Assembly (NCBI RefSeq): GCF_000003815.2
Contig: NC_049991.1
Coordinates: forward strand, 13,468,762-13,532,761
Length of the DNA: 64,000 nucleotides
From: Branchiostoma floridae
Taxonomy: Eukaryota; Chordata; Leptocardii; Amphioxiformes; Branchiostomatidae
Direction: 5' to 3'
Shown: in pieces, positions 494 through 60,668 of the stretch
Numbering within the stretch: position 1 is the first letter of the stretch
Layout of the letters: every line of letters begins with the position of its first letter
Translations under genes and position numbers: made by a program
The notes under the pieces: generated by a model
Databases searched by the model: none
Seen by the model: only the letters and a program-made list of their open reading frames with translations
Told to the model about the DNA's origin: nothing

Positions 494-599
494 ACGTCTT
501 CACCATGACAAGATGCCCACATGTTTGACTACACTCATCCCTAAGTTTGCCCCCAAGAACTTGACTCCAACCATTTAAGTCTCAGTTGCCGCCACCTGT

Positions 600-11410: not shown

Positions 11411-11611
11411 CTCATCAGACTTTATTTCAAGTTTCCCAGGCAACTTTCTCCTGGAGGACACCGCACAAAAGTCTCCAAGTCTGCCTGGTAACGCATCAAA
11501 GGATATGTCATTCCTCCTCTGGGAACGTGGAGCATTACACAAATTAGCCCTCCTGTAATCAATAGCCTGTTCTTCGGCAGTCAGAGCCAGTAAGCTTCTG
11601 GGCCTTGCCTT
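11411..11611 (-). other. Possible exon with charged, compositionally coding-like frame
   Basis: The frame reads ARPRSLLALTAEEQAIDYRR, then NDISFDALPGRLGDF, and ends at a GATGAG|GTAGAA donor-like site; without splicing it stops at 11,390. It is more GC-rich and more charged than its surroundings. The acceptor side is weak (GGTAAAG|AAGG). No family recognised. Confidence 0.22.
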
Positions 11612-12279
11612 CTTTACCGTCCAATATTGAAGTAGACAAGCGTGGGCAAAGAAATCAGATTTAAAAGAAAAATCAATGTACAAAAATAGTACATGATAAT
11701 ATATCATATACAGCATATATGTTTTATAACCCTTTTCTACAGCATATGGTTAACAAATTATGTATTCAGGGCAAAATTAAGGTGTAGGAATCCTCCAACT
11801 TGATAGATACGCAGGATGAAAGACACAATAAAGATGTGTATTCATTGTTAATGTAAAATAATAGCTCCATATTTGATTGATATATACGTCAAAGCAGACA
11901 GAAGTTCCCACACAGACTTGTTATCCAGCCATCACACGTACACATAATTCCGCACCACGGAAGTTTGTTGCTAATGGGAATAGCGTAGGGAGAAAATAAC
12001 AGGATCATGCTTCCAACAGGAAGTAGGTCTCTACATTCAGATCACACTGCATCCCTTGAGGTTGCAGTAGTTGGAACTGGGACTTGGTAGAACAAAAAGC
12101 CAGACTTCCTTTTTACCAAGGGGAGAACATGAATAGTTTAGAAGACTTTTGAAGCCATGAACAAGTCTTGAAATTGGAACACACAACTGAATGAGATAAA
12201 GGATAGACATGCTAAGCAATACATTCTGCTACCAACAAAACAATGAAAATTTGCTTATCATGATCAGCAATGACATTAT

Positions 12280-15197: not shown

Positions 15198-15258
15198 GTT
15201 CATTGACTTTTAATAGCAATGTAAAGAGCATTTACATTGTCATTAAAAGTTAATGAAC
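15198..15258. repeat. Short hairpin palindrome
   Basis: A 28-base arm starting GTTCATTGACTTTTAATAGC pairs with an arm ending AAAAGTTAATGAAC, with about three mismatches and a 5-base loop. The tiny loop fits a miniature palindrome better than a microRNA precursor. Confidence 0.75.
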
Positions 15259-18179: not shown

Positions 18180-19260
18180 TAATAAGTTTTGCTGCAGTAC
18201 CTTAGGAAGCCGCTAGGGGGCCCACTATCATAATTCATCTTCGTTTTCCTGACCCCTACCCACCTACCAAATATCATCAGGATTTTTTCAAGGCTTCTCG
18301 AGTTATGCATTCCACAAACAAAAGGACGCACACACTCGGCCCGCTACCGTCCTAACGGAAAATGCTACGTCAACTATTTTCGAACACAACCTTCCTTTCC
18401 GCAGCCGCTACTTAAATACTAAATATCATGAAAATTCATACACAGCTTCTTGAGTTATATGCTGTTGGCATGGATTTATGAACTTTCCTCATTAATTATG
18501 CAAATAAGCTACTGATTTGCATAATTAGTATTACATTGTATAAGTCATCACTCATTCTATCTACATACCGAAAATCCTGATGATCTGTTTATACGTTCTC
18601 AAGTTATCCTCGTCCAAAGTTTGAACGGAAATCGGTGCCTGCAGGTCCCAAAAAGCCGCTAGGGGGTCCAAACTCACAGCACTTACTCTCTGTTTCAAGG
18701 GCTATCTACCACTCAAAAATCATGACCACAGCATGTCCAGAACACGAAGTGCCAAAATTAAAAGTTTTGCTGCAGTACCTTAGGCAGCCACTAGGGTGCC
18801 CATTATCAAACTTGACCTTCGTTTTCCTAACCCCAATCCACCTAACAAATATAATCAGGATCCATTCAAGGGTTCTCGAGTTATCTTGCTTACAGACAAA
18901 CGCACTTACATACAAATCCCGCTACAGCACCATAGGTAAGAGCCAGGTAAACCATTTTCGCACTTGACCTTCCTCTCCAAAACCGCTACACACCTACCAA
19001 GTTTCGTGAAAATCGCCCAGCTAGATTTTGACTTATGCTGCCAAAAACAAACCGCAAAAAACATACCAAGCTCGCTGCAGTACCGTAGGAAAACGCCAGG
19101 TAAACCGTTTTCACACTTGGCATTCCTTTCGACAACTGCTACACACCTACCAAAAATCACAAAGTTCCATCCACAATTTCTCGAGTTATATGCTGTTGAC
19201 CTACATACAGACCCAAGTCAAGCAATCTCATACTCTTCTTGGCGAAGAGAACAACTGGAG
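18180..19260 (+). repeat. Diverged tandem/dispersed repeat cluster
   Basis: TTCTCGAGTTAT recurs near 18,293, 18,871 and 19,178, with TTCTTGAGTTAT at 18,445 and TTCTCAAGTTAT at 18,595. GCTGCAGTACCTTAGG followed by CCGCTAGGGGG-like sequence recurs near 18,190, 18,645, 18,770 and 19,070. Units average about 150 bases with strong divergence. Open frames across it are repeat products. Confidence 0.8.
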
Positions 19261-20461
19261 GTGAAAAAACAATTTGAGTAATGACAGGCAATAACAAAAG
19301 GGACAATATTTTACCATTATTTTCACATAACCAATCAAATCTCCCATCAAGTTGCAATATGGGACCAATTGTTGACTCGGAATCTGTGTCACCACATCTG
19401 GTGAAGGGATGAAAGATCAATTCTTTTGACTATTTTTCGATACAATGCCATACACAAAACATTTCTTAAAAACTGCTGTTTTCTCTTTTTGCCTTTACAA
19501 TTGTTTTAGTATGTCTACTTTTTATTGTTAAGCCAAATAACACTTTATATACTAAACCTTGAAGGTAGTTTGTGTTTTCTTCCAACAGTATAGGCTTTGC
19601 AAAATCTGAAATAGGAAATATAGGCCAAAGTTTAGTCAATTAGTCACTGATCATCTCAATGTGGTAATGATTATCTCTCACAAACTTTTACTACTCAGCT
19701 GTACTTAAGCTCCCTTCAAGAAATATTTTAAGATGTTAAAGATCCACAGACGTTTCTGTTTATCTGCACCTTAACAGGATTTCTGGACTAAAAAACAAAC
19801 TCATTTATTGTCGAACTGCAGATAAAAACACCCTTAGATAGGAAAATCTGTCTAAAGCCAGCTCCTTCCACCATGCCAAAAGCAGTAACTCTTGAGCTTA
19901 CTACATGACATGATGGAAGATGCACCATAACCTCAGATGACACCATGAATCCTCCTGACAGGGACCCTCTGGGAGATTTTCTTGGTCACAAATCATCCAC
20001 ACGTTGTGAGGGACCTGCCGGCAGACAGGCTGTCATTACCAGGTTTATGATGTATGGACTGTAATAATCTTGCCATGGCAGCAGCAGCAACTGGGTTGGC
20101 TGCCTGCGACGTTATAAATAATTCACCGCAGCCTTTGAGAAGCAGAAAATACACATATTTCATGGTATTTTTGATCACACATTAGACCTTTTCTTTCAGA
20201 TGCCATTTTGCTGCTGCATATAATGCTCTGAAGCTCAATCCTGTTACATTATAGACAGACCCCAGCAGGGATGGTGCTTAAATGTACGCAGCAAACACAG
20301 GCAGACATTTATTGTGTATTGTGCAGGTACTTGAGGATTTTACTTCATAAGCTCACAATACTGGTGTTATAGTGTGGATGGAGTCAGAATTTCTCACAAA
20401 ATTGTGACGGATGGACTAAAAAGTCCTCACAAAAAGGTGACGGTTGTCCTTTTTGTAAATA

Positions 20462-21395
20462 CGAGGGCGGTTCAAAAAGTAATGCCAGTGGTTTTATAAC
20501 AAACTCATGTTTTCATCGAATGAGTTGAAATTTGGCACAAATGTACAAGGCTATATCCTCTTGAGATTGACATATCTCAATTTGTGGTTCAGATTTTCAT
20601 GAGCAACAGAGATGATTTTAAGATGACCAAACCCTTAAATGCTTGTCAGGAGATCAGTTCCTCTAGTTCTTACCATTTGAAGACTATGGTAGGAAACTGA
20701 AATTTCACCTGTATTATAACAAATGTCTCTATAGATTACATGTCAAATTTCATGTTTGAACTCTCAATGGTTCATCTTTTACAGCCACCAGAATGGATCG
20801 AGTTGCTATATTACAGACAGTTTGATTAATTGCCAAATACGTGATTTGTTGAATAAAGGTTTTTGTAGACGGCTTTTCCATTAGCCAAAAGATGCGAAAC
20901 TTTGCACAATTATTAACTGTTTCAAGATCAAGAAGTGTCTTAAGTTTGATTTTTCTCAGTTAATAAAAAAAGTCGGTTATGGACAGTTTAAGCAGCTCAC
21001 CCCTAATCCACCGCTAATTACGACCCTGACGACCTCACTTCACACCAGGAACGAAAAAATAATAAATGATTGTATTTACAAAATTAAAATAGGCACGTGG
21101 CTTACAGAGAAGTGCAACTTGATACATGTGCAATTTCAGTTTCTTACAATAGCTACAAGTGATTTAGAAACATTATCAACTGTACGTTAATTAACCCTCT
21201 AATTTCTTCCGACGGGATACAGGGGTGTGGTCAACTTGAAGTCAACTCAGTCACTCATGAAAATTTCAACAACAAATTGAAATATGTCAATCTCAAGAGG
21301 ATATATTCTTGTACCTTTGTGCCAAATTTCAGCTCATTCGATGAAAACATGAGCCTGTTATAAAACCAGTGGCATTACTTTTTGAACCGCCCTCG
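20462..21395. mobile_element. Non-autonomous mariner-type element with about 160-base inverted ends
   Basis: Both ends begin CGAGGGCGGTTCAAAAAGTA and match in inverted orientation for about 160 bases. The element (934 bases) is flanked by TA on each side (20,460-20,461 and 21,396-21,397), the target duplication of Tc1/mariner elements. No transposase frame remains inside. Confidence 0.9.
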
Positions 21396-21624
21396 TATCT
21401 CGCTGCTAGACATAAAGAAAACGGTATAAAATAAAAAGTCCAACAAAAACTCCTAAACACACGTCAAAAAACAGCGGGGGCCAAACTTCTGCTTGGAGAG
21501 TATTGCAGCTGTTCTACTCCTTGATGCTATTGAACATATCTATGTGACCAGGTGTTGCCCTCTTTTAGAAATGGGTTGTCTATTGGAAACAGACAATAAT
21601 TACCTCCATGCCACACTAATGAAA

Positions 21625-21853
21625 GTAACATACATTCTCATAATTCCACCAGGTGTCATTATACCGCCACCTCAAAAAACGTTAGTATAGAGGTCTTCTC
21701 AAGATTCTCTTGAACATTGAATGCTAGATATCTTAAATGTAATACAATTCAGATATTAAGGTGTTGAAGACAATCTTGAGAAGGCCTCTATAACAACGGT
21801 TTTTGAGGTGGCAATATAATAACATCTGGTGGAATTATTAGAATGTATGTTAC
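21625..21853. mobile_element. Palindromic MITE, about 115-base arms
   Basis: GTAACATACATTCT at the left pairs with AGAATGTATGTTAC at the right. Inner arms contain GCCACCTCAAAAA / TTTTTGAGGTGGC and AGAGGTCTTCTCAAGAT / ATCTTGAGAAGGCCTCT. Confidence 0.88.
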
Positions 21854-22175
21854 ATGTGCCTGAGGAACCCTGTCATTACAACATTTTTGACATTCTCCCT
21901 ACGGCCTAACCATGAATAGAATTCATATAGGACCGCCCCACACTGCACAAAATCCAACCTTAACATACACCTTAAAGCAACCGTAAAAGTAGCGTGTTTT
22001 TTTTTCATGAAAGCATGCTTTACACATGCTTTAAGTGTGCTTGAATATAAGATTTCATGTGGTGCCGGCAGGTAGTGGCATGCATTTTCATAATGATTTT
22101 TGAAAGTTACCCTGGACACATACATGTAGGCTGGAGGTGATTTTCAGAGGACATAAAGCATACAGCCACACATGT

Positions 22176-22320
22176 ACATACATGTGACACTGGTTCACCT
22201 TTATCCGCAGGCTACGTCTGTTGTTTATGTTTTGAAAAACATTATTCATGGACATCAAGTTGGCGGACGGTGGTTTCAAACTATAATATTTCTAAAATAT
22301 TGACATTTGAAACCACTTTT
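22176..22320. mobile_element. MITE copy (GGTTCACCTTTATCCG family), partial
   Basis: Carries ACACTGGTTCACCTTTATCC and GGCGGACGGTGGTTTCAAA, with an inner inverted TTTGAAACCAC. It lacks the far terminus seen in the copy at 25,249-25,479. Confidence 0.75.
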
Positions 22321-24096
22321 CGTTGACTTGATATTGCTGATTACCCTATTGTTATCAAGCGTTAACTGTTAGTATATTTCACGTAATATGGAAATGTCTT
22401 TTCCTGTCAATGTCTCCGTAACTGGGGTTTTCTCTATTTTCAGCAATAAGATAAGTCAAAATCTCTGTATAAAATAAAAACAAACTGATCACACTTTGTA
22501 TTCCTGAGCCGTCCTCTCACAAAATTACAGTTACACGTCATAAGCCATTAAATGGAGGTGTGACACCATCTGGAAAGGTGCACATCTTCCGAGAAGAAAA
22601 CAGAAAGTGCCAGGAAGCATACGCATAGTAAAAGCGGCGTATTCTCCTTTCCCCCATAGAGTACAAAATATGAAGATGGATCCATCACCGGTCAGGTGGG
22701 CTTCACACCAGTCTGGCTTTGCTACAAATTAATGAAGTACGATCACACTTCTGTATTCACTCCTTGTCCTTGCTCGGCACTGCCTACAGTGACATGATCG
22801 GTGCCGTGATTCACCAGAGACCAACATCCAATAAACATGCTTCCACAAGAGTAATGAACTGCTGATGGCACAATACAGGCAATATCATCCAGCACACTGT
22901 CTCCTCCCTTGGGTCGGGTTAAGGGTCATATAGATGTCACAAATCACAATGTGTTACCTGTCCTCTGGATGCAAGAGCTAATAGGGCCTGCAAATACACA
23001 CCTGAATTGTACCTTTTAATCATTTTATGACCCATCCATTGTTTGCGTGTCCATGTTGTTAATTTTGTTATTGATCTGTCAAGTTAAGGTTCCAAAAATA
23101 CATTTTCATCAATTTCGTATTATGAAGTTAATTTTTTCTGGACAGACAGGGTGAAATTTTGTCCATCGCGGCAGGCAAATTTCTGACTCAGACAGATCAG
23201 CGGGTCCTGGAGACAGTCCTGCCAAAAAGAACTATTTTCAAAGATTATCTTTCTGTCGTTTTGATGGACAAATTTTAATGCTCTGCATGATACATTTTAC
23301 AGAAACATCATGCCAGGACGGATAAGAGCTTTATTACAGGGATACACGCAACAAAGTACAATTTTCAAGAGTGATGTTATCAGCCATGTTTTATTCATAA
23401 AGCACAACACAAGTGTTTTTACTGAGCAGGAGAGACACAAAAGTCTAAGTAATGACTATATTTCAAGTGTCTTCTCAGTAAAAATCAATGTTCAAATTGT
23501 TTTTGAGAACAAAGGAAACACAGGAAGGAAAGATTACTGACACTACTTCGATAAAATACAGACTTCCATCTATGTAATCATTTCTATAGCCGTTGGTCAA
23601 CATTTCCCAATGGAATAAAAAAGAGTCATGCAAATATATTGTAACTTGAAATTTGGGCGGCCTATATGTATATTTGCAGGTCAAGAAAAGTTCAAACTGG
23701 ACAATGTCAGAAACCACCCTATCAATGGAAGCAGGCCACCAGGCCAGATATACAAAGGGCTTGCAGTAGTGCCTTTCTGTACATCAGCATGAATGAGTGT
23801 CCTGGTTTCTTTTAGCTAGCAACCAGGTCAATGCACCTAACAGTGGCTACACAGAATCCAAGGGAGAGTGGCCTGAATACAAGGTTCGGCATTATCCATG
23901 GGACGCTAATCTCTTCTGACTCAGACATGTTTACTAACCACAAAAAGTGCTGGCTGTCTTTGGACAGTTCTATAAGGGTACATTGATCTGTGATTAGATG
24001 TTTCCTAAAAAGTTAGTCAGGACTTGTCAAGTAGTTTTAAAATATTAGAAGGTACAGAACAGTTATGACAGTTCTGTACATTGTTACATTTACCGA

Positions 24097-24250
24097 TACA
24101 TGTACATGTAATGCTAGCTCACCTTTATTTGCGGAGTAACCTATATCCGTCGTTTTTAAAAACGGTATTTAACGATGGCTTCAAATGGCATCATTTGCAA
24201 TTAAAGATATTGTAATTTGAAGCTAGTAACGTTAGATGTCTCTCCGTTAA
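24097..24250. mobile_element. MITE copy (GGTTCACCTTTATCCG family), diverged
   Basis: ACATGTAATGCTAGCTCACC starts the copy, followed by TATATCCGTCG and a diverged inner palindrome (ATGGCTTCAAATG / TTTGAAGC). Confidence 0.6.
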
Positions 24251-24979
24251 TTTCTGCAATAATTCAAGAACCAAGATATTTAATTGGCTTGGCCCAATCA
24301 AGTTTTAAAACATTACCATTACCTTTGGACACTTCTGTGAGGAGGTGACCTTTATCTGTCCCATAGAGACTCATTATAGTTTCTGTCTGTTGACATTTAT
24401 ACGCAGACTGTTCTTTCTGCAAGAAATGCCAATACACATCCAGATAAGTGTAAATCATGGAAAAGTTTGGTTACATGCAGTATTTGTAGGGTTTTGCACC
24501 TTTTTTGGTACATCTGAGCTCATTCAAGCTGCTACTAGCAAAAGGCAATTGTCATCGTACAAGAATTTTTCCTCACCATTACTCAAGTGTAGCCTGAAAA
24601 GAACTGGACATTTTGGCCAATCGTTACCAGGGAGGCTTAGAAAAGGATTGTTAAAAAAAGTGCTCCAAAGAGACTTTCAGCCACTGGCAGCAACAAAAGC
24701 AGTTGTTTCAAATCACATTTACATGGAAATGAGTTACGTAGGCTCTGACGTGAATAAGTGCGCTGCTTTTTTCTAAGACTAATAAAGGAGCTCCATTTTT
24801 CTTTGAAAGAACCAAGGAGGTTGAAAGAACGGACCCTAACATTTCCCTACTGCCAGAAAGACAGCTGGAAACCTATCGTACAGTAGCAGTTTCTCCTGCT
24901 TCCTAAATAAACACTTTTAAGGCTTTCCCTGCTGTGGGATCAACCACCCATCAAATTTGTTTTGATAAGCAGAGAGAGT

Positions 24980-25030
24980 AGGCAGGGGGAGGGTTAACAT
25001 GTGTCAGCAGGGGGAGGGTTAACATGTGTG
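24980..25030 (+). repeat. Tandem duplication of a GCAGGGGGAGGGTTAACATG unit
   Basis: Two adjacent copies differ by a few bases. Confidence 0.85.
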
Positions 25031-25248
25031 TAAAGTCCCATTAACCCTCTGGTGACACAGGTTGTCTGTAACAGCCTGGCTCTAATTAGCCCACCTGCCA
25101 GGAGGGTTCAGTTGTTAGTGTTTCTTCCTTGATAGATGCCCACAGTCTGTTTCTCATGCCCCAAGTCTGATGTATATCAAAATCTCAATATTGTGGGGTT
25201 AAGAGTAGAAAGAACAAAACTATTGAGTGGGTATGTACATGTATGATA

Positions 25249-25479
25249 TACATGTAACGCTGGTTCACTTTTATCCGAGGGTAACCTTTATTCGTTGTTC
25301 GTACAAAAAACGTATTTAGGGATATAAAGTCGACGGACGGTGGTTTAAGATCGGAACATTTTGAAAATATTGCAAATTTGAAACCACTGTCAGCAGACTT
25401 AATACTTCTAAATGTGCTGTTTTTAAAGACAACGGATAAAGGTCACCACATGGATAAAGGTGAACTAGCATTACATGTA
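25249..25479. mobile_element. Full-length MITE (GGTTCACCTTTATCCG family)
   Basis: The left end TACATGTAACGCTGGTTCAC and the right end GTGAACTAGCATTACATGTA are inverted copies. Further inner pairs are TTTATCCGAGGGT / ACGGATAAAGGT and GGTGGTTT / TGAAACCACTG. 231 bases, no coding capacity. Confidence 0.88.
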
Positions 25480-25480
25480 A

Positions 25481-25640
25481 TCTCCAAGCAGATCCACTGG
25501 TGGCTAGACCGTACCTATCGGCCCAAACAGTACCCATTGTCCTCCAGTGGAGTATGTCCAGAGACAAGTACAAGGACAATGTAATCTCCAAGCAGATCTA
25601 CTGGTAGGAAAACAGTACCCATTGGCCACCAGTGGAGTAT
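25481..25640 (+). repeat. Two tandem copies of a TCTCCAAGCAGATC-containing unit
   Basis: ATCTCCAAGCAGATC, ACAGTACCCATTG and CCAGTGGAGTAT recur in order. The same TCTCCAAGCAGAT end occurs near 36,747 and 40,110, with inverted forms near 60,885 and 62,484, so it is a dispersed family. Confidence 0.8.
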
Positions 25641-26752
25641 CTACAGAGGCATGCATGACAAAAAAAATTGAAAAAGAGACCTCCCTAGTATTAGTATTAT
25701 TCATATAAATTCTCGTATCAATTCTAGAGTTAATTCTGTCTTCTTTTTTTTTCAAGTGTTGCATCTAGATATTTCAATGCATGCAATATTTCCTGTAACG
25801 CTTGCCTCAAAAAAGCAAACGTTAGGATTCCAGAGAGGCCATGGGTCATGGTAAAACAATGACTCAGAGGCATTCCAGAAAAGCTTGGAAAAAGCACAAT
25901 CTTTTGCAGGTTTTCTGGTAACACCTAAGCTTATAATCTTGGTCATCAACCACCTGTATATACAGGAAGCCAAAGCCCAGGCTTTCTGTGTTTCTTGAAT
26001 TAAACCGAGTCTCCTTAGGCAGACTGGAAAGCAATATTCTCTGGCAGACAAAAGACTGGCCTTCATACTGATCAGTGAATACACAAAATACCTGTGCTGC
26101 CATGCCTTAAGGTCCATTATACATGTATGTCATGTGCTACTTTAACAACTGGTTAACCGGCATCTAACATACCAACAATCTTAAAAATCCCAATGAGTTT
26201 GCACACTAATGCTAAGTGCGCTTGCTCTCAAAATATAACTTGTCTTGAATACGACATGCTGGGTCCGTTTGCTCTTGCGAGGAGAAGAAGTGACAAGGAT
26301 TGACCTGCGTAACCCCTGACATCATTTGGTGTAAACAATCCATTCAGTAACACTCCCTTTGTGCCATTTATATAGAGAAACTTGCAACTGTTTATACATG
26401 GGTGTCCAACTACTGTGGTTAAGTGTCTGTAAGGGTCAAGCAAAAGTACACCATGACAGGTGAAGGCTGAGGCATAGGTCCTTGGAGGGAGGTCAAACTA
26501 GATAATGTCAAGAAGAGGTTCCTTCAAGAAGTTACATGTATTTGAACCATGGCTGTCTCCAGCTTTGAATTTCGTTCCATCCCACTCATTGTTTGGGAGC
26601 TCATGTTGTTGATATTCCTTTTTAAACATGTCATTTTAAACCTGTGAACAGTTTCATGTCATGAAGGCTAAGGTAAAAAAACAATTCCGTCCCAACAAGC
26701 AAATTTCCATCCTGGAGCAGAGGGATGGGTCTTGGAGACAGCTCTTATTTGA

Positions 26753-26776
26753 GCACTATCACTATCACTATCACTT
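26753..26776 (+). repeat. CACTAT microsatellite
   Basis: Four short tandem copies of CACTAT. Confidence 0.85.
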
Positions 26777-29700
26777 CTCAGTCTAGATAGTTTTGAGACT
26801 GTTGCACCTGATTACAAAGTGGGTGGATGACATGAGGGCAAAGCCATGCATGATGGAAAAATACAGCTACAATGTACAGTGGTAACAGAGAGGAAAACAG
26901 GTGAATATAGGGAAAGGTAGCCTTTTTCAGCAAAATTGCAGAGGGCCAGCCAGCTGGAAAAAGGTCCATCAGGCATATAATATAGTGTACAGAAAATGCC
27001 ATGACTTCATTAGTATGCCTAGAATTCGGGCCACACCTATAGAATTTCTGTGGTCATTAGAAACATAACGATTGGGAAAAAAGAATATTCATTATGAAAT
27101 CATCAATAGAAATGTATATAGCAAACTATCAAGCAATTGCTTACCACCCAATACTGTTACCATTTTATTTGAAAAACTAAATGTCAAATGACATCATTAA
27201 GATACATGTATGGTTATCAAATTGATAAACTAAGTCTGTTACTAGGCGTTTCCCCATTTCATCAGTACATGTATATGCCTTATCTACGTTTTACCTTTAA
27301 TTCAATTTGCACTGTGTTAGTATCACATTACAGTATACATTACGTTTTCTATCCACATTATACATTATACCACAACCTTCACCTACAATATGACTGTATA
27401 CACACCATGCAAACTTCAAGCACGACACAAACTGAATACACACAATATGAATACAAATCATCATTCCAATGATTGAACACGTCACCAAGTAGATTTATGG
27501 CTCCATCAAAAACATTTTACCTGCCATTTATCAAACATTTTACCTGCCTTTTATTGTCCCTTTCAAACCCTTTGATGCAAAGCTTCATGCAGATGATCTC
27601 AATTTGCCAAAATACCAATCATGAAATACAAAATGTCAGAAAAGAATGTGAGAAACATCCAATTTTCTACCAACTAAAAAATATCTAACTGTAGTATGGC
27701 ATGTGGCAGCAACATAAAATCCAAAGCAAATAAAGGTCTGTTTCCAATATGGTTGCCATATTTTTTGCTGTAAATTCATGTTTATCATATTCTTTAAAAA
27801 TTTTCTTTATTTATCAATTAGCTTGATATATGAGACTGTTAATAAATTGGGAACATATTGCACATGACTTCAGGTTACCCATAAGTATTATAGCCTGTTA
27901 CTTAAGGCATCCATTAAGAAACCTGACATGGTTGACAATATTTCTCACGTTTCTACAAATACATTTTGTGCAATATCGTGGTGCTATACTGCTGCACGAC
28001 CAAACCTTAGGGCAATGACGACATGGTTACATATGTATGCGTAATCCTGTCTGTTTAACCAAGCTTTGTTGACTTTCATAAATAAATCATTCTTCCAGCA
28101 CACACCGCCATTGTACCCTTCCAATGCAATTATTCCCCATTGTGGTTTTGCCAGTCTGGGATAAGGGGCCTAACCAGTAACAGTCATGTTGGAGCTAAAT
28201 CAATAGGGAAAGAATGTTCCAATGCATCACAAGTAGGCTGGAAAGGACATTTTAAACTGCTCTTGTTTTGCGTACTAATTGTCTCATTTGTGTATATGAA
28301 TGCTACATGCTTCATTTGCAGTCATCATTGTTAAGGGCAATTCTGGTTATTCTGAAGCCTCTTACATCTAATGATATAACTGTCACATGTGATTTTCAAC
28401 TATGTTCTGTCTGTATTTTCCCTACTTAGGTACCTGTGCAATTAACCTGTAGAACAACCTGTATATACAAATTCCACTTTCTCCATCTTGGCTGTGAGGC
28501 CACCTGACAGGTGACACACCCAACCAACCTGCACCTTGGCAACAGACAAAATATTTATCTCAGTCAAAAAAAATACAGGCTTCAGGCATGTTTTTATCAT
28601 GTTGTAGTAATAACAGTTTTCCTCTTCATTTGCTCACAAAGAGGTGAAATTTATAATTGCTCTATTCTTCATGATATCTGAGGAAACTGCCTTTTCATGT
28701 TAGAAAAAGCAAGAACATCATAATTCCTTATGACGTTTTGGGGGCTTTCTGCAGGCTTGTTCTATATACTTTCAGAGGTACAAGCCTTAATTTTAAAGAA
28801 AGAAGGCAAGTATAGAGGCCCGTACAGCATTTGTGACACTCAGTGTGTCCATTGTACTTTCTCTTGTATCCCAGTAGTAATTACATTGCAGCTAAGGGTG
28901 CTAGTGCAGATGGGTGAACAATAATTAACAGTCCTTTGTGAAAACCTGGGCCAGTTGATAACCAACACACGAAGCCTGTGGGCAGCTTTTCTTGAGGATT
29001 TTTTACAAAATGTGATAATCCTAACATCAAGCCATCTCTGGTAGAACAAACAAAAGTCAAACATTGAAAAAACATTTTATGCCAGTGTAACCTTAGAACT
29101 GAATAATTTACATTTTGTCCTATCTTAAAATGACCAAATCCATCAAAGATCTCTACATCTGTGATAGATAGCTAACATGCCATTATGTAAGTAGAGCTGG
29201 CCTACTTTCTTGTAGTCTGACCCTTTTTCCTTATCCCTGCTTAGCAGCTGTCAGGGTTGCAGGGAATGCATCATCACTAAGACACCAGCAGATTTTCTGG
29301 GCAAACATATAGTCCCTTGTCTTAATCATAATGAAACAGGACGTCTTAAAACATTTTAAGTGTGGAGTCCAAGTTATGTTAAAATCTCTATCACTATAGT
29401 TCAGTTCTTCCATTTCCAGTTGATCCTGTTACTAACATTTAGGGTTTGGGCCAATGTACTTGCTGGAGGCATGACACCACCACCAGAAAGGTCAGGAAGG
29501 ACTTGTCATGTTTGTGTAAAGAAGAACAACTGAACAATGAAGCACAAATGTTCTGGTTGATCGAGCAGGACAGAACATAAGCATGGCAGTGCCCTTGAAT
29601 GTGTACTTTCCTAACACCGGGTTTGGCACAACCTCAGAAAAAAACTTGGCTCACACCCCAAAAACCAGCTGTCACTCTAAACCATATTTGTTCCTTAACA

Positions 29701-30962
29701 AAAGGACTGTTTTCTTTAAATCATTTCAATAACACCACCCTTAACCTGCCATGCAAATATCCTGGAATATTCTTTGATCCAAGATGTATGACACGGGGTT
29801 GCTTCAAGGGCCTATCAACAACATAGAGCGGAACTTATGCCACCAATCCAGCGTAAGTTGTCTGATGTCATAGTTGGGGCTGGGTTGGCACAGCCGCGGC
29901 TCCACCGAGACTGGCTGACACAAAAGGGGGTTTACCTATAGGTGATGGGGAAAGCTTAGCTTATCTGGTTGGTATGTTCTGATGATAGCTTTTCCAATCA
30001 TTCTATCACCAGAGAGGTTATCCAGACCTATACATGCTGCTGCAGTCTGTATTGTTGACAGTCATTTGATAAAGCTTAAGATTTCATCTTATTATGAGGA
30101 TATTATGACTCATATGACATAAAACAGGTAGGCAATAAAAATTACAGGCTAATTAAGTAATAGTCATCTAGTAAACTAATGGCAAAAGCATAGTGTTGAC
30201 AATTTCATATTCTTGTTGATTTCTTAACAAACTCTATATATGTATAAGTCATAATTTCTTTTGTATTTTACCAAGTATTTTACCAAGTTTTTTTGTTGTA
30301 TCGTTCTTGGCTAGCAATTTACACCAGACAAATTTTATGTCACTGGTATGTCCGATTCCTGATGACAAAAAGATTATGTCATGGAGACATGTAGCAATAA
30401 ATTATTAATGAGCACACAGCAAAAAAGCACCTAATGATGTCATAAAATGGGATCATCATCCAAATGAAACACTCGCATGCCACTATCAATTACAAAGATT
30501 GCCATGCAAGATATTGCAGAAACTCAGCAGTCGCATTTACTTTGATTATTTTCATAATAAGTGATTAGCAACCTGGCACCAGGCCATTAGGCACCAAAAA
30601 CACATTACTTTCCCATATCATCAACCTGTTATTCTGGAACATTCTTAATTTTCCACTCACAGACTTCATCTTTGAGCTGATTATGTTACTGAACTAATTA
30701 CTGATTATGATGATTTGTAATTTGTTATGATAAGAAATCATCTGGCTCCTCCAGCTTTTACTGAAACAATTGTAGTTCATTTGATAGTTTCCCAATTCAA
30801 CAGTTGTATAATTCCAACAAGTGTACAAAAAGGTCATGACATCAATGTTTGGTGTCAATCACACTCTTAGAGAAGATGAAAAGCTAAAGAGTTATTAATA
30901 ATTCATAGTCTACGATGAGAGACTACATCAGGAAGAAAAAATGTTGACTGGCAATCATCAAT

Positions 30963-31047
30963 CGGTAATAAAAAAGAAGAGAATCAGAAAATGCTCCCCA
31001 CATCAACAAGGAGGAGCATTTCTTTATTCTCTTCTTTTTTATTACCG
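30963..31047. repeat. Near-perfect hairpin, about 35-base stem
   Basis: CGGTAATAAAAAAGAAGAGA at the left pairs with TCTCTTCTTTTTTATTACCG at the right, then AGAAAATGCTCC with GGAGCATTTCT, leaving a loop of about 13 bases. It may be a miniature palindromic element or a hairpin RNA source. Confidence 0.88.
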
Positions 31048-33694
31048 TTTATGCAGGCCTGGCAGCCCAATATTTTCCAGACCAACGAAGCCTATTGCTG
31101 AGCCTTTTCCTTTCTGAAGATCCACTAGGGATGAATAAGGAATCTATTTTACATCGGATGATTTCAAGAAAATGGATGGAAACGAGAGTGAACAGGCAGC
31201 AAAATGTCATGATCATGCCTTGACCTTTCGTAATGGAATATGCTTTTCGGGAAAGTCACTCAAATGGAAGGAAGAAAACCAGTGTCCAGCCATTGCTTTT
31301 GGATATAGCTTCAACTCTAATTGGATTTAGCAAGGCTCTACTGTGCGCAAATTGTAGAAGTCTCTGTGAAGGATAATGGGCGCTTTGAAAGAAGATTGTT
31401 TTACGACACAGCCTGAGGAAGAAAGCTTTTACCTGTAATAGCCCTGTTTCATACGTACAAAATGTCATAGATTGATAACCTTTCAAACCATGAAAAAGAA
31501 TTCTTATCTTAAGTGCACAGTGATGAGAAATGGATCCTGAAGTCTAAGCCTTGGGCCATCCTTTTAAATAAGTAATACTGACTAACCAGACCTAGGCAGC
31601 CTTCAATATTTTTTGCAGAAAAAACAGTCATATGAATGAAATGGTATTCATGCCCGAAGTGATTGCAAGATATGATCGATTCATTTCAGCCCCTTTAAAG
31701 CTTGCCCTCAAGAAGTTTTCATCCCAGGTAGTTGCTGATGAGAGGACATCATATATTGACAAGTAGATATATGACACAGTTGGGAACATCCAGTCACTGC
31801 ATGATTTTTATTTTCTTTCATACCTGAATGACCTTAATGCTGAATGCCTTACCCTCGAACTGACTCCTGTTGTTACAGTAATCGAAAGGTGTGTCAAGAG
31901 ACAGACTTATCTGTCTGCAAACAGTTACTAAGCAGAGCTTAAACAACAAAGAATACCTCTGCATCCCTCCTAATGCCGGTTTCACAGATAAACAATGTGT
32001 ACAACAATGGCAAACATCCCCCCTTTATTAGTATGGCCCACAGGTTACCTAGCAACATGTATATCTATGTATGGAAGGTCTTTCAAAATGATTGGTCATT
32101 GATACATGTAGCTAGAACATTCAACAGTAAATGCAAAGTTCTATGTTGTACAATGTACATGTGGGCAATGCACATAATTCATAGAACAAAACACAGATAA
32201 CGTTATTCTCCATCATAGCACATAATATTACAGGCTCTGTGAGCACCTGCTGTGGGAATATATATCGGACAAAGTTGCTGAATCATTCCCAGGAAACGAG
32301 CCTGCCAAAGTCTACAGATATGATGTAATTAGTCATGTTCAATCCTTATAAATGCTGTACATGCCTCGTAATCTCAGCCCCCAGGCATCAGGCGGTGGCC
32401 TTGAAATGTGCTCCAATTTGGTCTTTCATCTTTCTCTACACTAATGTTTGACAAATCACTGTTTAATACAGATATTATTTAGAACATGCCCCTAATCTAG
32501 CCACCCTGTCTGGGAGTCAGATTAAAGGGCAATGGTGGCGGATTCTCATTTTTAAAATCCTGGTGAATTTTTTCGTAGGTATAATGAACCTTGCCTTCCT
32601 CCGACCTCTGAACAATTCCACACACAAGGGGTTACTGTAACATCCATCATACATGGCAATTAGGTTAAGTTGTTTTCAGACTTTTGATAGGGCGTGGCTA
32701 ATAGCATGCCTGTTCCATTTCTTCCACATTTTTGCTGAATAGACAGTAGTTTTTCTTTATTGTGTGTCAGAAATGCAAACTTCAGTTGAGCATGAATGCC
32801 CATCTATTGCTGAATCTTTAGAAGAAATGCCATATTGCAAAACAAACAAATTGAATGCAAATGATGCATTTAACTGTATTTTTCCTTCTTTCAATTTTGA
32901 GGGGCAATCAAATGATTTAATCTATGGGGAACATTCTTGGTTGGTTTAAAACATATGCCCTTCATCAGCCCTCTTTCATTGGAAACAGTAGGCTGTTGTG
33001 CAGCACACAAATGAGCTAGGCCATTAATTACAAGCTTTGTCCTGCCAGTTTCCTGCTCCTAGCAGATGGGGGAAGTCCATATCTATACCAAAAGCCAGAA
33101 AATATGTCTGCTGAACAATACAGCTTTCAGTTATTGCTCACTTAGTGTGTATGCCGGCCAGTATATAAAACCCCCTTGCCCTAAGCGGCCTTGACAATTT
33201 CAGGTATTCTGGTCTTCCTGGACAAATTGAATTTTGGTCCAATCAAACTATAGGACTGGTACACCAAAGGATGTTAACCTCCTGTGTAGAACCCAATTTT
33301 AAAGCCATCTCTGGAGTCAGGCAAGGAATATTTTTTGCGGTAGGGCCTTGATCCGATAAGCTTAAGTCTAAACGAATGCCTAATGTTAATTCAAAACCTC
33401 CTACAGAGAACATAGATCAAACAAATCTGTTTAGTCCCAGAGACATTGCGAAGACTGTAAACAGAATACATCATGGAAAAAAATGTCTTGTCTGAAAAAA
33501 AAAAAATCTCCGAAGTCGAATGCCCTCCCCTGAAGCCTCCAAGTTAGGTTAGGTGAGGTAATCATGAGGAATATTTGATAAGGACATAGTTCTCAGGCTA
33601 CTTATAGCTAAGGAAACTGCAAAACAGAATCCAACTAAATCTAGTCAGATTCAACTTTCATCCTATATGAATAAGAGGATGTGCATGGGGGTCC

Positions 33695-33856
33695 CGACAA
33701 TGATTTACGCTGAATTCAGAAGAGCCCCCTACGTATTACGCTAAACCAAGGAAGGCAATACGCTAAATGTGGTCGCCTTGCTACGAATTACGTAGATAAG
33801 ATGGTTTTCCCTACGAGTTAGGGGAAATAAAATAGGCTACCTACGCCTTAAGTAAA
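33695..33856 (+). repeat. Degenerate short repeat cluster (CTACGAATTACG core)
   Basis: CCCTACGTATTACGCTAAA, GCTACGAATTACGTAGAT, CCCTACGAGTTAGGGGAAAT and CCTACGCCTTAAGTAAA follow at about 40-55-base steps. Confidence 0.7.
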
Positions 33857-34043
33857 AGAGCATGCAGACTCTCAAATAACTTTTTTGTTTTCTTCCTGCC
33901 TTAGCCTAAACTCTAAGCCTCATGCAAATGTATCTCCTAAAATCAATATTCCCACACTGATCCATCCATCCATCCATTTCCTGGGTTGCTTACAGCCACC
34001 ACCAAATACAATCCAGCAGTGTTCTACCAGTGGATTTCAATTA

Positions 34044-35147
34044 CAGTAGAAGTCGCTTATTAGGGAAGGCCATTTGCCAGCTAAATTTTCCCGACTAACC
34101 GGCGTTCCCGATTAAAAGATGTTGCTCGAAATGACCCGAGTGGGGATGGGGGAGGGGGGCATCGGTGAACGCATCGCACGCATTGACACAAAGAATACAA
34201 CACAATCATTTCTACCACAAATAATCAAGTCCATAATTTCATTTAACTCCACAAATATACTTATTAGCCACTTTCAGCTTCAAATTTATCTTTTATCGGT
34301 AATTGTGATCACATTTTAGTGTCGAAGAACGAATCGCGATGCATCAAAAGATCTGTTACGTTTCGTCTATAGTATCGGCTTGAAGAAAACAAAGAAATTA
34401 ACACTGCTAAAACACGTTGAGCTACCGAAAAAAAACGAGGTACATATGCAAACGTATTCTAAATTTGCCAAATGAACAATTGTTTTGATTAATAGAGGAC
34501 TGATCAAGGGTACAGTGCACGCGCTTACTACGTAAGATGTGGCGACATGTGATACACAGACGAAAACCATCGCTACGTTGTAGGACGAAAACGCTCTTGG
34601 TTTTCAGACAAACTTTATGTACTAGGCGAAAATACTCATGACTAACGCATAAATAAACTGTTAATCTTCATATCTACAAATTTTCCAGTTACGATGTCCA
34701 CAGATTACACTGAAATTTTGCCACAGTCGACAGTGTCATTTTGAAAACATTTCCATCACGAAAACAAAGATGGCGGACGCGGCGTCATGTGTAGTATCCC
34801 ATGATTCCCTGCGGCAACCGCCGGGCCGCGCGCTAGCGACGTAAATTGAATAGAAATCGCGGCCTTTTCGGACTCAAAACAGGCAGTTTTGATACTTTTG
34901 GCGATCTGATATCTTTATACGGGAAAATTTTGGTTCATTCCTGCTGATTCTGGTGATTTGTTTGGCATATTTCGGGGTTAACATGCGTTGTAACTTGAAT
35001 TTTTTTTCCCGATTAGCCGATTTGGGCTTTGCAAATATGGGGTGCTGTAAACAATAGCGCCAATGGGAAATGGTTTTGGATTTCAAAATTCTTTGCAACT
35101 AACCGATTTTTGCGACTAAGCGTATTGCAAATAGCTGGCTTCCACTG
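34044..35147. mobile_element. pogo/Tigger-like DNA transposon, non-autonomous
   Basis: The left end CAGTAGAAGTCGCTTATT and the right end (inverted) CAGTGGAAGCCAGCTATT are flanked by TA on both sides. Subterminal motifs CCCGACTAACCGG and CCGATTAGCCGAT are typical of this family in animals. 1,104 bases, no transposase seen. A GC-rich internal patch (34,768-34,865) carries AAGATGGCGG (YY1-like) and TATCCCATGATTCCCTGCGG (ZNF143-like). Confidence 0.8.
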
Positions 35148-36744
35148 TAGAATGGAAATGGAGCCACATTATTGTGCTCTCCTATCATCCCCTGTCCCTA
35201 CCCATAACCCTGGCAGGTCCCTAACCTGCTTATCTAACCCTGGGGAGCTGGCCACACAAGCCCATCAGCCTCCTAATTTTCCCTGAAACAAGATCAATAC
35301 ACCTGCTACTGAAATGAAATACAAGCCCTCTAATAGGGAGTCTGCAGGAGCCATTCTCACAGACTTGTCAGACATTGACAGATCACCCAGCCTTTAGACC
35401 TAAGCCTCCTTGCCAAGCCCAGATGGGATCCCTGGGGGAAAGGGATGTCTTGAGAGAAGCAGGACCTGTGTGTAGGTGTATCCTGTACTCCCACGGGCTT
35501 TTTGATACAGAAGGGATTTGAGCTGTTCCCATACATAACCACCTGTGATCTCTAATGCCAAATCAATATACAAAAAACATTAATAAAGATCAGCTGATCT
35601 ACGGGAGACCTTTGGTGCTTTCCTGAAAATGACCCTTTGCTGCAACCATATATCACTCGAGAGGCACACCTTCATGTTACTCAAATATACACAGGCCCTA
35701 CTAAGTACTATCCTTTTAGTCATGCAGACATTACCGGAAGAAGAAGAAGAAACAGAATAAGACAAAAAATTTGCATGCAAACAAAAAAAAAGTAAACTTT
35801 TTGTCTCCGCACCTCAAGAAACTTTCCCAAGTATCATCATCATCACGTATGGTAATGCTGTTTTTGGTACAATACCTCATCCTCATCCATTCTGCTGGAA
35901 TGACTCATCCACTTTTCACAAGTGGGTTCTGGAAGCACTGCCTCCAACTCTCTCATCATCCTTGTGCATCCTTCAGAAAAACTGCTTGAAAACATCGCTA
36001 AAGGCTGCTTAAAATATCAAGGAGAGGGACCAATATCTGAGTTGTACCATCGTGCTCACCATGCATATAAATTATAATCAATTGAATTTTTTACTTACTT
36101 TTTGAAGAGTTTTTTTCCTTGAAGTCTTTTTTGCAGAAGAATCAATTGTGGGTTTGGGGAAACAAAATTTGGTTTGTAACTTTCTCCATATTTTGACCTG
36201 TAATTGACCCCTAAATGAGATAGTCCTGCATTCTCATTGGCTGGATTGACCCATTGGGACAAGGGGTGGATCCTGGTGTCATTTCAATATTTTGGCTGTT
36301 TGGCTCTTTAAAATCCCAGAGCTGAACTCCCATGTTTTGTACCTGAGCAAACTTGACAAACAACCTGTGTTGTGGGTATAAAAACTTTGGTTTGAAAAAA
36401 TATTAATAATGTTTTTAATTTGATTGTTTTCCATTCCTTCATCATGTACTGTTCCAATAGACCTGACCACAAGCTGTAATTTCTTGGAGAAACAGAGAAA
36501 GTTAAAAAAAAATTCATTACTAGTCCGAGTCCCTGCAAAGATTCTTTATATTCCCTCCTAGTCTGGACCTCCTAATGGCTCTGGACAATAGACCATTCAC
36601 CACAGGAGAGATAATGTTACTTGATGGATAATGTTTATTAGAACTGCATCAGTTGGATAGGAGAAAACGAATTCTGACATATATTTTCTAATACAAACAT
36701 GTATGTCGTGCTGTACCCAATACTGATATAGCCAAATTGCTTAA

Positions 36745-36840
36745 CCTCCAAGCAGATCCTACGGTGCCATAAGATAGTATCAAAGCTGGCCAAAGAGTAT
36801 AGCCGGCTAAGGGAGTCAAACAGGCATGTAGCTACGGGAA
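36745..36840. mobile_element. Dispersed element fragment, inverted copy at 60.8 kb
   Basis: CCTCCAAGCAGATCC, AAGATAGTATCAAAGCTGGC and ATAGCCGGCTAA occur here and, reverse-complemented and in order, at about 60,820-60,895. Confidence 0.7.
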
Positions 36841-36897
36841 GTTTGTGGCTTTTGTGGCTTTTAACCCATTGACAAGTGATTACCTGCCTACACTTAA

Positions 36898-37133
36898 GGT
36901 GGTATCTCACTGCACTTGGGGCACCAGTGTGGCACTGCAGGGTTCGTTCATTGTGGCACTGTAAGTTGTGTTATTTTCGCAGATTTTCTTATAATTGAGA
37001 TATAGTGTAATACGTAAAAGTATGACCTAAAAGACAATAAAATACACAAAACGTAAGAAAATGTGTTTTTTATCTCTGAAATTCGTCGAGTAATTTTTCG
37101 CATCACCGGTGCCCCAAGTGCAGTGAGATGCCA
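36898..37133. mobile_element. MITE with CTCACTGCACTTGGGGCACC ends
   Basis: The left GTGGTATCTCACTGCACTTG and right CAAGTGCAGTGAGATGCCAC ends are inverted over about 28 bases, with an AT-rich interior of about 180 bases. No coding capacity. Confidence 0.85.
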
Positions 37134-40100
37134 CGGCTTCAGGTATCTACATAATACAACTCTTCCACTTGACCAGGAGACCTGTAAGTTCCCATGTGCT
37201 TACACCTGTACTGCACAAACGTGCCCGTGCATTCAGGAGCATGTAGCCTTATTGGAAACACTGACGTTCCGTAGTACAGTACACTGTACAGCATGCACAG
37301 AAGTGCCAATTGATATGCCCACGCAATAAACCGTTTCTGAAAACCACTGTGGTCTGTATAGACTGTATAGCTCGAGACCGGATGGACTCGACTTAAGCAA
37401 GTAAGCAAGCATCATTAAGAAGCTTCAACACCATCTTGTTCTGTACATACAATATACATCTACCAGTGAGTTTCCACCCACTCAACCCATCACGCTAATG
37501 TATTACACAAGTCATACAATATCTCTTATATTCAGATCTCTACAGCAAATCTATGCAGCTCTTTTTCTATGAGAATCTTATTTTTTACGTCTATTTTTCA
37601 ATATTAAAAAAAAAAAGAATAGACTGAATTAGCATATGGCCTCGACATTAAGTGGTTTCTTTCCGCACCATCAGCTTTATCTATATATGATTTCTACTCA
37701 AAACTCATTTCCTCGAAGTACATTACGGCAAGGCTGTTTTGCGAAGAATGCGCAGCTCGATGGAATGATTTGAGAACGATAAAGGCGAACGGCATGACGA
37801 CGAGAATGCTAATAGCCAGCTACACAAGTGGTGAGATGTACCAAGGAGAATGCAGGCAGCACTTTGGTGTGCTCCCGAATTCCCCTATTGGAATGTGTGC
37901 ACCCAAGCGTGCAGGCATGAATTGCAAATTTATAGGCGCAGGCTGGAATCTACACCGCAGTTGAATTGGCCGTCACATTTCAAATTAGACAAAATTAGAC
38001 GTGTTTAAGTCGCGGCATCTCTTTTAGGCATAGGCAGCTCACTTTAATTTTTGCCAAGACCTCAATTCACACTGTACCAGCAGATATTGCCTTTAGATAG
38101 TATATGCATAACATCATTCACTTTCCAGAAAAGAGGCAGATGTCAGAGGGAAGATTGTGATGTTTTCTAACTGATCTGTTATTGCTATAGTCCTACCTTT
38201 GGGAGGAGTATCTTGGCAAAATCAAATGAGTAATACTATCATATCTCATAATCAAAATTATCTGACACTTTGTCCTAACGAAATTGATTTCAAATGTTAT
38301 TGGCTACTCTCTCATGACAAGATCAAGTATTAAGCTTTTTTATTCCATTTTTTTTTCTAATTTCTTACCAAGTGATTAAAAAATACATTCATATTTCCAC
38401 CCATGATATGCTTTGAAATCATCTTTCATCTTTAATGATTTGAAGTTTAGACCACCTGAAACAATTTTTTTTCCAAAGAAGGCTCACAAAAAGGAAATGA
38501 AAAAATCATGACAGCTGAGTGGAATACAATCAGATGAGCTTTTTTGTTTAATTGAGGGTGAAAGGGATTTGCCAGCATTAACTGTCTATTCAGAATATAA
38601 AGGAATCAATTGTAAACTCATTAGTTGAAATGAAAAATGCATCAATGGCCATATGCATCATAATGTAGGAATAAAACTACATTTGTCATTTACACAAACA
38701 AGCTGCTTTTGAATCAGCATGCAACATAAGCCCGCCTTTAATTCCAATGTGCCCCCGAAAATATCATAGAAATATTCAATATTTGTACCAGATTTTGCCT
38801 TCTCCAAGCTTTGATGCCACAGCATCCATTTCCATTAATATCCATGCAAATGCAAAGACCTGGCTCAGTCGCAGCATTTTGAGTAATGCGCCTTTGATTA
38901 TTCATACCACTCACCTTCTTCTACATGGAGAAAAATACAGACCACCAGAAAATCAAACCCTACATCTGCTTGGAGATAACTTTCATTATAATATTCAAGG
39001 CCACACCAATTTATTGCCTTGTTTCTTCTAGGACATTGAATTGTGAAAACATAGCAATTAGCAGGCAACTTAAAATCATAGGGAAGGGAGGAAAATTTGA
39101 ATATGACTCTTACAGACTCTATTAAACTGTGTATAACCATTCTTTAACCTCCTTGGTATAACAAATAAACCTAGTCCTCAAGCTTTGTTTTCCCTTATGT
39201 TTTTCCACTAAAAGCATATTTGTAAAAAAAATCCTAAAAGCAACATATTTGTGTGGCTCAAGGCCATGAGTTGAATTTCTAATGAGGGTGATTGAAGAAC
39301 ACCAGTAGGCAAAACAAAGCATTCTCCGCCTCCTCAGCACTATATACCTGTACCTTCAGACCTTACACACAAAAGCACATGCAATATACTAGATTTCTTC
39401 TCGGCTGCATGTGGAACATGTCAATATTAGCAAGGCAAACCCAGACACAAGCACCCGCACGCCATGTGGCATAGAAAGCTACTCAGCTTGACTGTAAATC
39501 ACAGGTGGCCCCACACACTTACCAATCAGGTGTGAGAAACCCAATATGTGGTATCCCCCTGTTAAACCCCTAACTTCAGTGGGAGGTACTTAGCGTTGCC
39601 TGGCAACAAGAACAGAAAGCAGAGCAAATGTTATCATTGAGATTACAGCGCACAACTCGGGCAGTGTGCGTGCTAGTGGCCTAGCTAACACATTTTCCAT
39701 TCTAAGAGGTGGCAGTAAAAATCTACAATCCTCCATTAGCACGTCAAGAAAACAACAGAAGTATAGTCACTTTTAGTAACACAACATGCTAAATGAGTTT
39801 TGCCAGTCTGAGCTAATTCATGATTTCACAGATGCCTCATTATACAGGAGTCTCACATACATGTATATGGCATTGATAATAAAAAGCAAATGCTGGCGTT
39901 AATTAATGAGCAATGAGAAATGACATTCCAGCTACAAGTTCCTCCTAAAACAAGATCAAGTCTTTTTATCATTTGCCTAATTGCATCACTCTGTTCATCA
40001 TTGCCACATTGTAAGTCAGTCCACCCCCCACCCCCATCCCCCAGCACTCACATGGCAGAAACATGTGATTGCGAACTGATGCAGCCCCAAGTGCATATGT

Positions 40101-41180
40101 TCATGACTAATCTCCAAGCAGATGTGAGGAGAAACAACCATCACATTTCTCTGCATGAAAATATTTATATTATAATAGCAAGTGCTTCTCTGATTCACTT
40201 AGTGCAGGTTCCAAGAGCTTTTAGAGTATGTAATGATCATAACCTAATAACCCAATGCTGAAAGAAGGGCACTTGAGCAAGGCTGAAGTTGTGCACAGGG
40301 AAAAGTTCAGATACTGAAAGCTAGTACATATGACTTTAAGTAAGCCAAGACAATGACAACTCATAACAATTAACAGCATGTTGCTTATTTCACCACAATT
40401 CTATCCTATTGACATGTTGATGATTTGGATAAGTTGCAGACCTGAACTTCCAACCTTTAATCAAGGGTCCCCAAGACGAAGATCAGAACCACAATTTGCC
40501 AGCTGACTGAGCTGACGTTTTCTCAGTTATAACCTCCTTGTTCTCTCCAAAGTCAGACTCTGACCATTTCTGTAGACTATACCAGGCGTGATATTATGTA
40601 ATTTTCAGGAGATATGATTTACAATGTATTTACAGCCCCACGTTAATCCCGTATCGATTCATCTTTCTATACATATTACACATGTATATCAAAGATGAAA
40701 TCTGTGATTTTCTGTTACTTTCATTTTCTTTTAATAAAAGATCTTTCAAAGTGTTTTCATTCTCTCAATTCATCACTTCTTCTCATGTAATAACTACTGC
40801 TGCCATCTGCATTGGTAATAACATGAATAATATGAATGTTCCTTTGATTACTGCAAAGTGAAAAATAATTCAGACTATTCAGCATCTATGAACTCATCAA
40901 ATTAACATTCATCCATCTCTTCATTCACATAGCTTATCAATCCCCTGTAATGACAAATCATCAGTGTTGCCATGGCAATTGGGGATTACCCTAATCAGCA
41001 CTCCTGTCACTTTCAAAATCTGATTTTTTATGGGGGGAGGGAACAGGAGATAGTATCATCTGATATCTATCTATTCCACTTACCTCTTATCTTGGTTTCT
41101 CACCTGTCCGGAGAAGCACCTGTTACAATGGAGAAAGGGCGTGTGTTATGTGTCTTTGTAAGTGTGTGTTTTTGTAAGTG
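37134..41180. other. Intron-like sequence next to the channel first exon
   Basis: AT-rich, with no gene or strong repeat recognised apart from one TCTCCAAGCAGAT end near 40,110. First-intron regulatory elements could lie here but cannot be called from sequence alone. Confidence 0.4.
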
Positions 41181-41189
41181 AAAGGATAT
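41181..41189 (-). other. U12-type (AT-AC) 5' splice site of channel intron 1
   Basis: Reading the minus strand, the exon ends ...TCCTGGCC and is followed by ATATCCTTT, a full match to the 5' splice-site consensus of minor-spliceosome AT-AC introns. No usable GT donor lies at the point where similarity to Cav3 proteins stops. The split codon CC+N gives the proline that family members have at this place (N-P-W-F). Voltage-gated sodium and calcium channel genes are classic carriers of U12 introns. The matching acceptor was not found. Confidence 0.8.
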
Positions 41190-41620
41190 GGCCAGGAGAT
41201 GAGCTTAATGCACCACAGTCGGGGCTTGTGTGTCTGTTTGAGGAAGCAGAAGGCGGTCGGTGCCAGTTCGGGGTACGGCTGGACATCCTGAGCTTCGGAC
41301 CGTTCCTCCGACTCATCTCCGCTGGTGGGCGGATCGGGTACGATCTCGTCGTTACATGGCCTAGGCGATCTGGGTGGAGGGCTAGCTTCGGGCTTGCCTT
41401 CTTCGCTCATCGCCGCCGAGATCTCTTCCGAGCTTTCCCGCTCCGGTTCGCAGCTACTCGTGCTCTTGTTATCATCACTTTCGCTCGAGGAGTCGGCTTG
41501 TCCATCTGTGGGCTGAGGCGCGGGAGCCGGGCTCTTGAGGGGATCGTCGGTGGAGGACTCGGGGGACCCGGTGTCATCACACCCGCCAGGCGCGGGCGTG
41601 GGCTCGGCCGGCTCCGACAT
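41190..41620 (-). CDS. First coding exon of a T-type (Cav3) voltage-gated calcium channel alpha-1 subunit
   Basis: This exon encodes the cytoplasmic N-terminus of a low-voltage-activated calcium channel, a plasma-membrane pore-forming subunit. The ATG at 41,620 is preceded in frame by a TGA five codons upstream, so the start is firm. The exon holds 143 codons plus two bases (phase 2). Residues 1-112 are a low-complexity Ser/Glu/Pro/Asp-rich tail. Residues 115-143 carry the diagnostic block PYPELAPTAFCFLKQ...KPRLWC. It matches the vertebrate Cav3 N-terminus (PYPALAP...FxL, RPRxWCL, NP) that sits just before the first membrane helix IS1. The open frame ends at the AT-AC-type donor at 41,189. 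The rest of the channel must lie to the left and I did not find it in the window. An HVA channel or NALCN is less likely because the block is Cav3-specific. Family assignment is strong; the CACNA1G, H or I symbol cannot be given because invertebrates usually have one Cav3 gene. Confidence 0.85.

Positions 41621-60340: not shown

Positions 60341-60668
<328 letters not shown>

Follow-up and report, generated by a model that had tools for sequence, protein, structure and literature searches.

The window analysed here is a stretch of 64,000 nucleotides of the genome of the lancelet Branchiostoma floridae, C13:13468762-13532761 (C-numbered contigs are those of the lancelet genome). Its minus strand carries the first coding exon of a putative T-type calcium channel (Cav3) gene, followed by a large part of a long intron:

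41618..41620, minus strand: start codon ATG, 15 nt past an in-frame TGA at 41636-41638
41190..41620, minus strand: coding part of Cav3 exon 1, 143 codons and 2 nt, ending ...PYPELAPTAFCFLKQTHKPRLWCIKLISW-CC
41181..41189, minus strand: U12-type 5' splice site ATATCCTTT, agreeing at 9 of 9 bases with the consensus published in PMC6259924
41078..41103, minus strand: two GT sites that resemble U2 donors, one (GTGAGA) from 41103, the other (GTAAGT) from 41083
1..41189, minus strand: in-window part of intron 1, 41,189 of 69,252 nt

The coding part of exon 1 spans 431 nt and ends in phase 2; its ATG, read from 41620 to 41618, is the earliest one after the in-frame TGA at 41638-41636. The similarity that exon 1 shows on its own is short and modest (31-65 aa). 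When its protein was compared with PDB by phmmer, human Cav3.3 (7wli) matched residues 78-142 with E=9e-4 and was the sole match at E<=10. Conversely, exon 1 was the top match in the window for domain I of human Cav3.1 in a tblastn search (E=1.4e-6, 45% over 31 aa), the query being identical to 6kzo/6kzp across 192 residues. Exon 1 by itself belongs to no Pfam family, which is expected because its sequence precedes the first membrane helix.

No Pfam family was matched at E<=0.01 by any of ten long open frames taken from the window, exon 1 among them, and an Rfam search over the window gave no match at gathering score. Two of these frames (46913-47425 and 61244-61765, minus strand) are long and similar to each other. 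By eye we take them to resemble a TREX-type DEDD exonuclease; Pfam returned nothing for either at E<=0.01. The window also contains tandem arrays, among them one at 55993-57456 with a 115-bp unit, 12.7 copies and 89% matches, and others at 58517-59013, 59037-59390 and 60341-60643.

Next, we looked at what lies downstream of exon 1. A scan of the genome (513,431,437 bases in 431 contigs) with PF00520 revealed ion-channel exons on the minus strand of C13, outside the window on its left side, from 13413314 to 13440700. The region C13:13398762-13468761 was then examined as seven 10-kb slices. Pieces of human Cav3.1 from domain I to domain IV were aligned there by tblastn in the correct order on the minus strand, from C13:13440697 to 13405167, so that the four homologous domains of a Cav3 channel are found on one gene. 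The piece nearest to the window, Cav3.1 residues 32-113, matches C13:13440697-13440455 with 74% identity (E=1.7e-38).

The two tblastn pieces of Cav3.1 adjoin at the junction, query residues 2-32 falling in exon 1 and 32-113 in exon 2. In the exon 1 alignment, residue 32 faces a Tyr translated from intron sequence; the true match is taken up again in exon 2 with residue 32. The true end of the exon 1 alignment is therefore Pro31 of the query, in agreement with the claim of the first-pass annotation that the Cav3 match stops where ATATCCTTT begins. The protein joined from exons 1 and 2, ...CIKLISWPWFERLSMMVILLNC..., crosses the junction without a gap against human Cav3.1, Cav3.2 and Cav3.3 (E=2.4e-73, 1.1e-67 and 8.7e-72, respectively), its best match outside Cav3 being Cav1.1 with 2.9e-31. 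Judged by these comparisons, the gene is a predicted Cav3 (T-type) gene rather than a Cav1, Cav2 or Nav gene. That 41181-41620 holds the first coding exon of such a gene had been proposed from the window alone, and both the tblastn and phmmer matches and the downstream genome bear this out.

Exon 2 (WFERLSMMVILLNC...) begins at C13:13440698, directly after TTCCTTGACTCCACTGTAC, which consists of a perfect U12 branch site and an AC end. The bases ahead of it read TTCTGCAAACATTCCTTGACTCCACTGTAC|A and are followed by TGG TTC GAG CGG. The branch site TTCCTTGAC fits TTCCTTRAY, its branch A is 11 nt upstream of the final base of the intron, and the 3' dinucleotide of the intron, at C13:13440699, is AC. 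Intron 1 thus combines the donor, the branch site and the 3' end of a U12-type AT-AC intron. It extends from C13:13509950 to 13440699, i.e. over 69,252 nt in phase 2, and the interval is free of any N; of this length, 28,063 nt, acceptor included, are found to the left of position 1 of the window. The codon split across it, CC|A, encodes Pro, and exon 2 continues with W-F-E.

Several predictions had been made from the window sequence, namely that the exon ends at a U12-type AT-AC donor, that the split codon restores a conserved proline, and that further to the left there should be an AC with a TTCCTTAAC-like branch site 10-15 bases ahead of it and W-F-E-R codons after it. The downstream acceptor, its branch site and the CC|A at the join of the two exons agree with all three. 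The branch site found, TTCCTTGAC, has G where the prediction had A.

How much weight the splice motifs deserve depends on their frequency. Within the 134 kb considered, counted along the gene strand, ATATCCTTT starts at 3 of 11,565 AT dinucleotides, the Cav3 donor counted, and an exact TTCCTTRAY stands 8-18 nt before the end of 3 of 7,308 ACs, the Cav3 acceptor counted. For the degenerate motif RTATCCTTT about 1.7 occurrences are expected on one strand of this length and five are seen. Exact donor and exact branch motif are each uncommon in the region, but the 9-mer taken alone is no rarity; the weight comes from position, donor and branch site both standing where the protein alignment and the reading frame require them. 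The other four exact RTATCCTTT on the gene strand (C13:13480267, 13427582, 13427403 and 13422222) end no Cav3 exon seen by tblastn.

A conventional reading would place the end of exon 1 at a U2-type GT donor and treat ATATCCTTT as coincidental, and the two GT look-alikes, 87 and 107 nt past the exon end, are good-looking sites. However, an in-frame TAA at 41123-41125 precedes both of them, so that use of either would end the protein early. Moreover, Cav3 homology ends at ATATCCTTT, and the upstream end of exon 2 is an exact U12 branch site with AC instead of AG. We consider this reading almost certainly wrong. Two further candidates were discarded. One is an AT-AC intron of very small size with its end near 41123; by eye, it has no U12 branch site, and its joined frame is not Cav3. 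The other is the set of WFE codons inside the window, a single exact TGGTTYGAR at 31490-31482 of the gene strand; the frame after it leaves the channel immediately (WFERLSIYDILYV*), and no U12 branch motif stands in the preceding 25 nt.

We therefore return to the AT-AC intron, for which the following can be read directly from the genome: two exons that share strand and contig, the donor, the branch site, the acceptor, the frame and, as described below, three snRNA genes. On this sequence evidence, exon 1 almost certainly connects with exon 2 over a U12-type AT-AC intron of 69,252 nt in phase 2. In the animal, the transcript would presumably be spliced in this way. Donor ATATCCTTT and branch site TTCCTTGAC would be recognised jointly by the U11/U12 snRNPs, after which activation of the site would fall to U6atac/U4atac; with the intron gone, CC|A would be united into a proline codon immediately ahead of domain I helix S1.

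The length of the intron invites two other explanations. First, the 69 kb could be an artefact of assembly, misjoined or expanded repeats having inflated an intron that is truly short. The window does hold tandem arrays, one of which (12417-12712, 89-bp unit) lies inside the intron; the scan for arrays covered the window, with 41,189 nt of the intron. Against such an artefact, there is no N between the exons, both are part of one 22.4 Mb contig, where their order and strand agree with those of the other exons of the gene, and the largest arrays of the window (55993-59390) are upstream of exon 1. An artefact of this kind is very improbable. Second, a nearer alternative first exon within the 69 kb might serve most Cav3 transcripts, leaving the exon in the window as a minor one and the long intron rarely spliced. 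Another exact ATATCCTTT does occur inside the intron (window 11498-11506, C13:13480267), and alternative first exons are known in mammalian Cav1.2 (PMC3634016). A stray match of this kind means little given the motif counts above, and a tblastn search of the interval between exons 1 and 2 (E<=0.05) found no second Cav3-like N-terminal exon, although a divergent N-terminus would escape it. We regard this alternative as unlikely.

The lancelet genome carries three of the four snRNA genes that removal of such an intron would call for. Searches with U6atac, U12 and U4atac each gave one match above the Rfam gathering score, on C17 (133.6 bits), C6 (132.1 bits) and C2 (81.1 bits), respectively, all three being judged on score alone. 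None of the 14 control genomes matched in these searches. By its U12, U4atac and U6atac genes, the host possesses snRNAs of the minor spliceosome.

We then compared intron 1 of Cav3 with introns at the same place in other channel genes of the lancelet. Seven loci of 5-20 kb each, containing first-domain Nav/Cav exons, were chosen from the genome matches and do not amount to a census. A phase-2 U12-like intron was present at the same place in all seven:

Cav1, C5: GT-AG, 3,061 nt
Cav2, C8: AT-AC, 10,217 nt to the first S1 exon, 10,814 nt to the second
Nav-like, C19, plus strand: AT-AC, 949 nt, imperfect branch motif GGACTTGAC
Nav-like, C19, minus strand: AT-AC, 4,662 nt, imperfect branch TTCTTTAAC, donor ATATCCTTC
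Nav-like, C19, minus strand (C19m_a): GT-AG, 5,761 nt, imperfect branch TTCTTTAAC
Nav-like, C2: AT-AC, 4,812 nt
Nav-like, C17: GT-AG, 6,590 nt

With Cav3 included, the intron is found in eight of eight genes (Cav3, Cav1, Cav2 and five Nav-like), as AT-AC in five and GT-AG in three, the branch motif being imperfect in three of the eight. The C17 and C19m_a loci each offered two candidate donors, and we kept the donor preceded by a frame that looks like the N-terminus of a channel; the donors giving 5,925 nt (C17) and 1,025 nt (C19m_a) were dropped in favour of those giving 6,590 and 5,761 nt. Joined junction peptides gave Cav2.2 as the top match for Cav2 (E=3e-40), Cav1.3 for Cav1 (E=5e-29) and the sodium channel PaFPC1 for the C17 locus (E=3e-12). 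The other four Nav labels come from tblastn with a Nav fragment. The shared position and phase suggest that the Cav3 intron descends from an intron common to Nav and Cav genes.

Against these seven homologous introns of the same genome, which range from 949 to 10,814 nt, the Cav3 intron with its 69,252 nt is 6.4 times as long as the next longest. The first-pass annotation had noted at least 41 kb of intron with no further exon, which is correct for the window, and had called the intron unusually long for its class; the comparison gives the same answer.

For mammals, minor introns in the genes of voltage-gated channels are said to have been treated by Wu and Krainer in 1999. An intron of this kind is already published: PMC6259924 describes a U12-type intron at D1S1 of Nav1, Nav2, Cav1, Cav2 and Cav3 genes, which is absent from NALCN, and gives the same splice consensus in its Figure 6 legend. 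Our intron resembles it in place (domain I S1) and in its donor ATATCCTTT, and the Cav3 branch stretch TTCCTTGACTCC fits the TTCCTTRACYCY printed there at 12 of 12 positions. According to PMC2831892 (Table 2, section 8), intron 1 of Drosophila Ca-alpha1T is an AT-AC U12 intron and its human orthologue is U12 as well. The lancelet gene is alike in being a T-type gene with an AT-AC U12 intron 1, the likeness being one of intron number and class. A fly/human Cav1-type intron is given there as GT-AG U12, which the GT-AG intron of lancelet Cav1 fits. PMC3634016, PMC6865273 and PMC8767276 are in accord with this picture of minor introns in channel genes; the latter two concern mammalian voltage-gated channel genes, whereas the present gene is from a non-mammal. 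Branchiostoma and U12-type introns are both mentioned in PMC3033335, PMC10173493 and PMC3488318, and a list of lancelet U12 introns may already be in print. What is new is the lancelet Cav3 instance, its acceptor and its length, and the result is one of correct gene annotation and not a surprise. It adds to the picture of the Nav/Cav D1S1 intron as among the oldest known minor introns, kept in all eight lancelet genes examined.

Our literature search found no printed length table or maximum for U12 introns, so that the word long rests on the same-genome comparison. In PMC7367187 and PMC10639083, U12 intron length is reported to track genome size and major-intron length, so that neither paper forbids long U12 introns; section 18 of PMC7367187 argues that intron definition sets no limit on their size. 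The Cav3 intron, at 69 kb, bears on the debate whether U12 introns must be short. It is conceivable, but doubtful, that the intron has been kept long for a function, the timing of Cav3 being controlled either by slow minor splicing together with the time taken to transcribe 69 kb, or by regulatory DNA or alternative first exons within it. If so, few functional U12 introns of invertebrates would be longer, and it would offer a natural test of an intron-length limit on U12 splicing.

Apart from the intron, several duplicated exons were observed in these genes. In Cav3, the exon for the S4-S5 linker of domain IV is present in two copies (C13:13407018-13406948 and 13406594-13406524) of 71 nt each, with AG/GT borders and 55 of 71 bases alike. 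Their peptides, LKLLKMAKGIR[S/F]LLETVMKALPQ, differ at one of 23 residues. The pair is probably mutually exclusive, with a Ser/Phe swap in the gating linker. Elsewhere in the same gene (C13:13427692-13427448), two truncated tandem copies stand just before the full S2 exon of domain II. They comprise the acceptor plus roughly 20 codons from the start of the exon, are spaced by 179 and 177 nt, and look like decayed exon duplicates. At the Cav1 locus, two domain I S2 matches (C5:223017-223151 and 222741-222869) cover query residues 55-99 and 58-100 with 56% identity each, which suggests a possible duplication of this exon.

The Cav2 gene has two tandem domain I S1 exons, C8:9306753-9306858 and 9307350-9307455, with the donor at C8:9296536. 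They are 106 nt each and share 72 of 106 bases. For each, a separate TTCCTTGAC branch site with an AC acceptor stands in front and a GT donor behind. Among the literature matches listed, nothing concerns tandem Cav2 S1 exons; the pair is more unusual than the Cav3 intron. The peptide matching Cav2.2 with E=3e-40 is that of the donor joined to the second exon, and inclusion of both exons together would shift the frame. As the acceptor of each exon is of U12 type and its donor of U2 type, U2/U12 incompatibility would make the two mutually exclusive, which, to judge from their sequences, they probably are.
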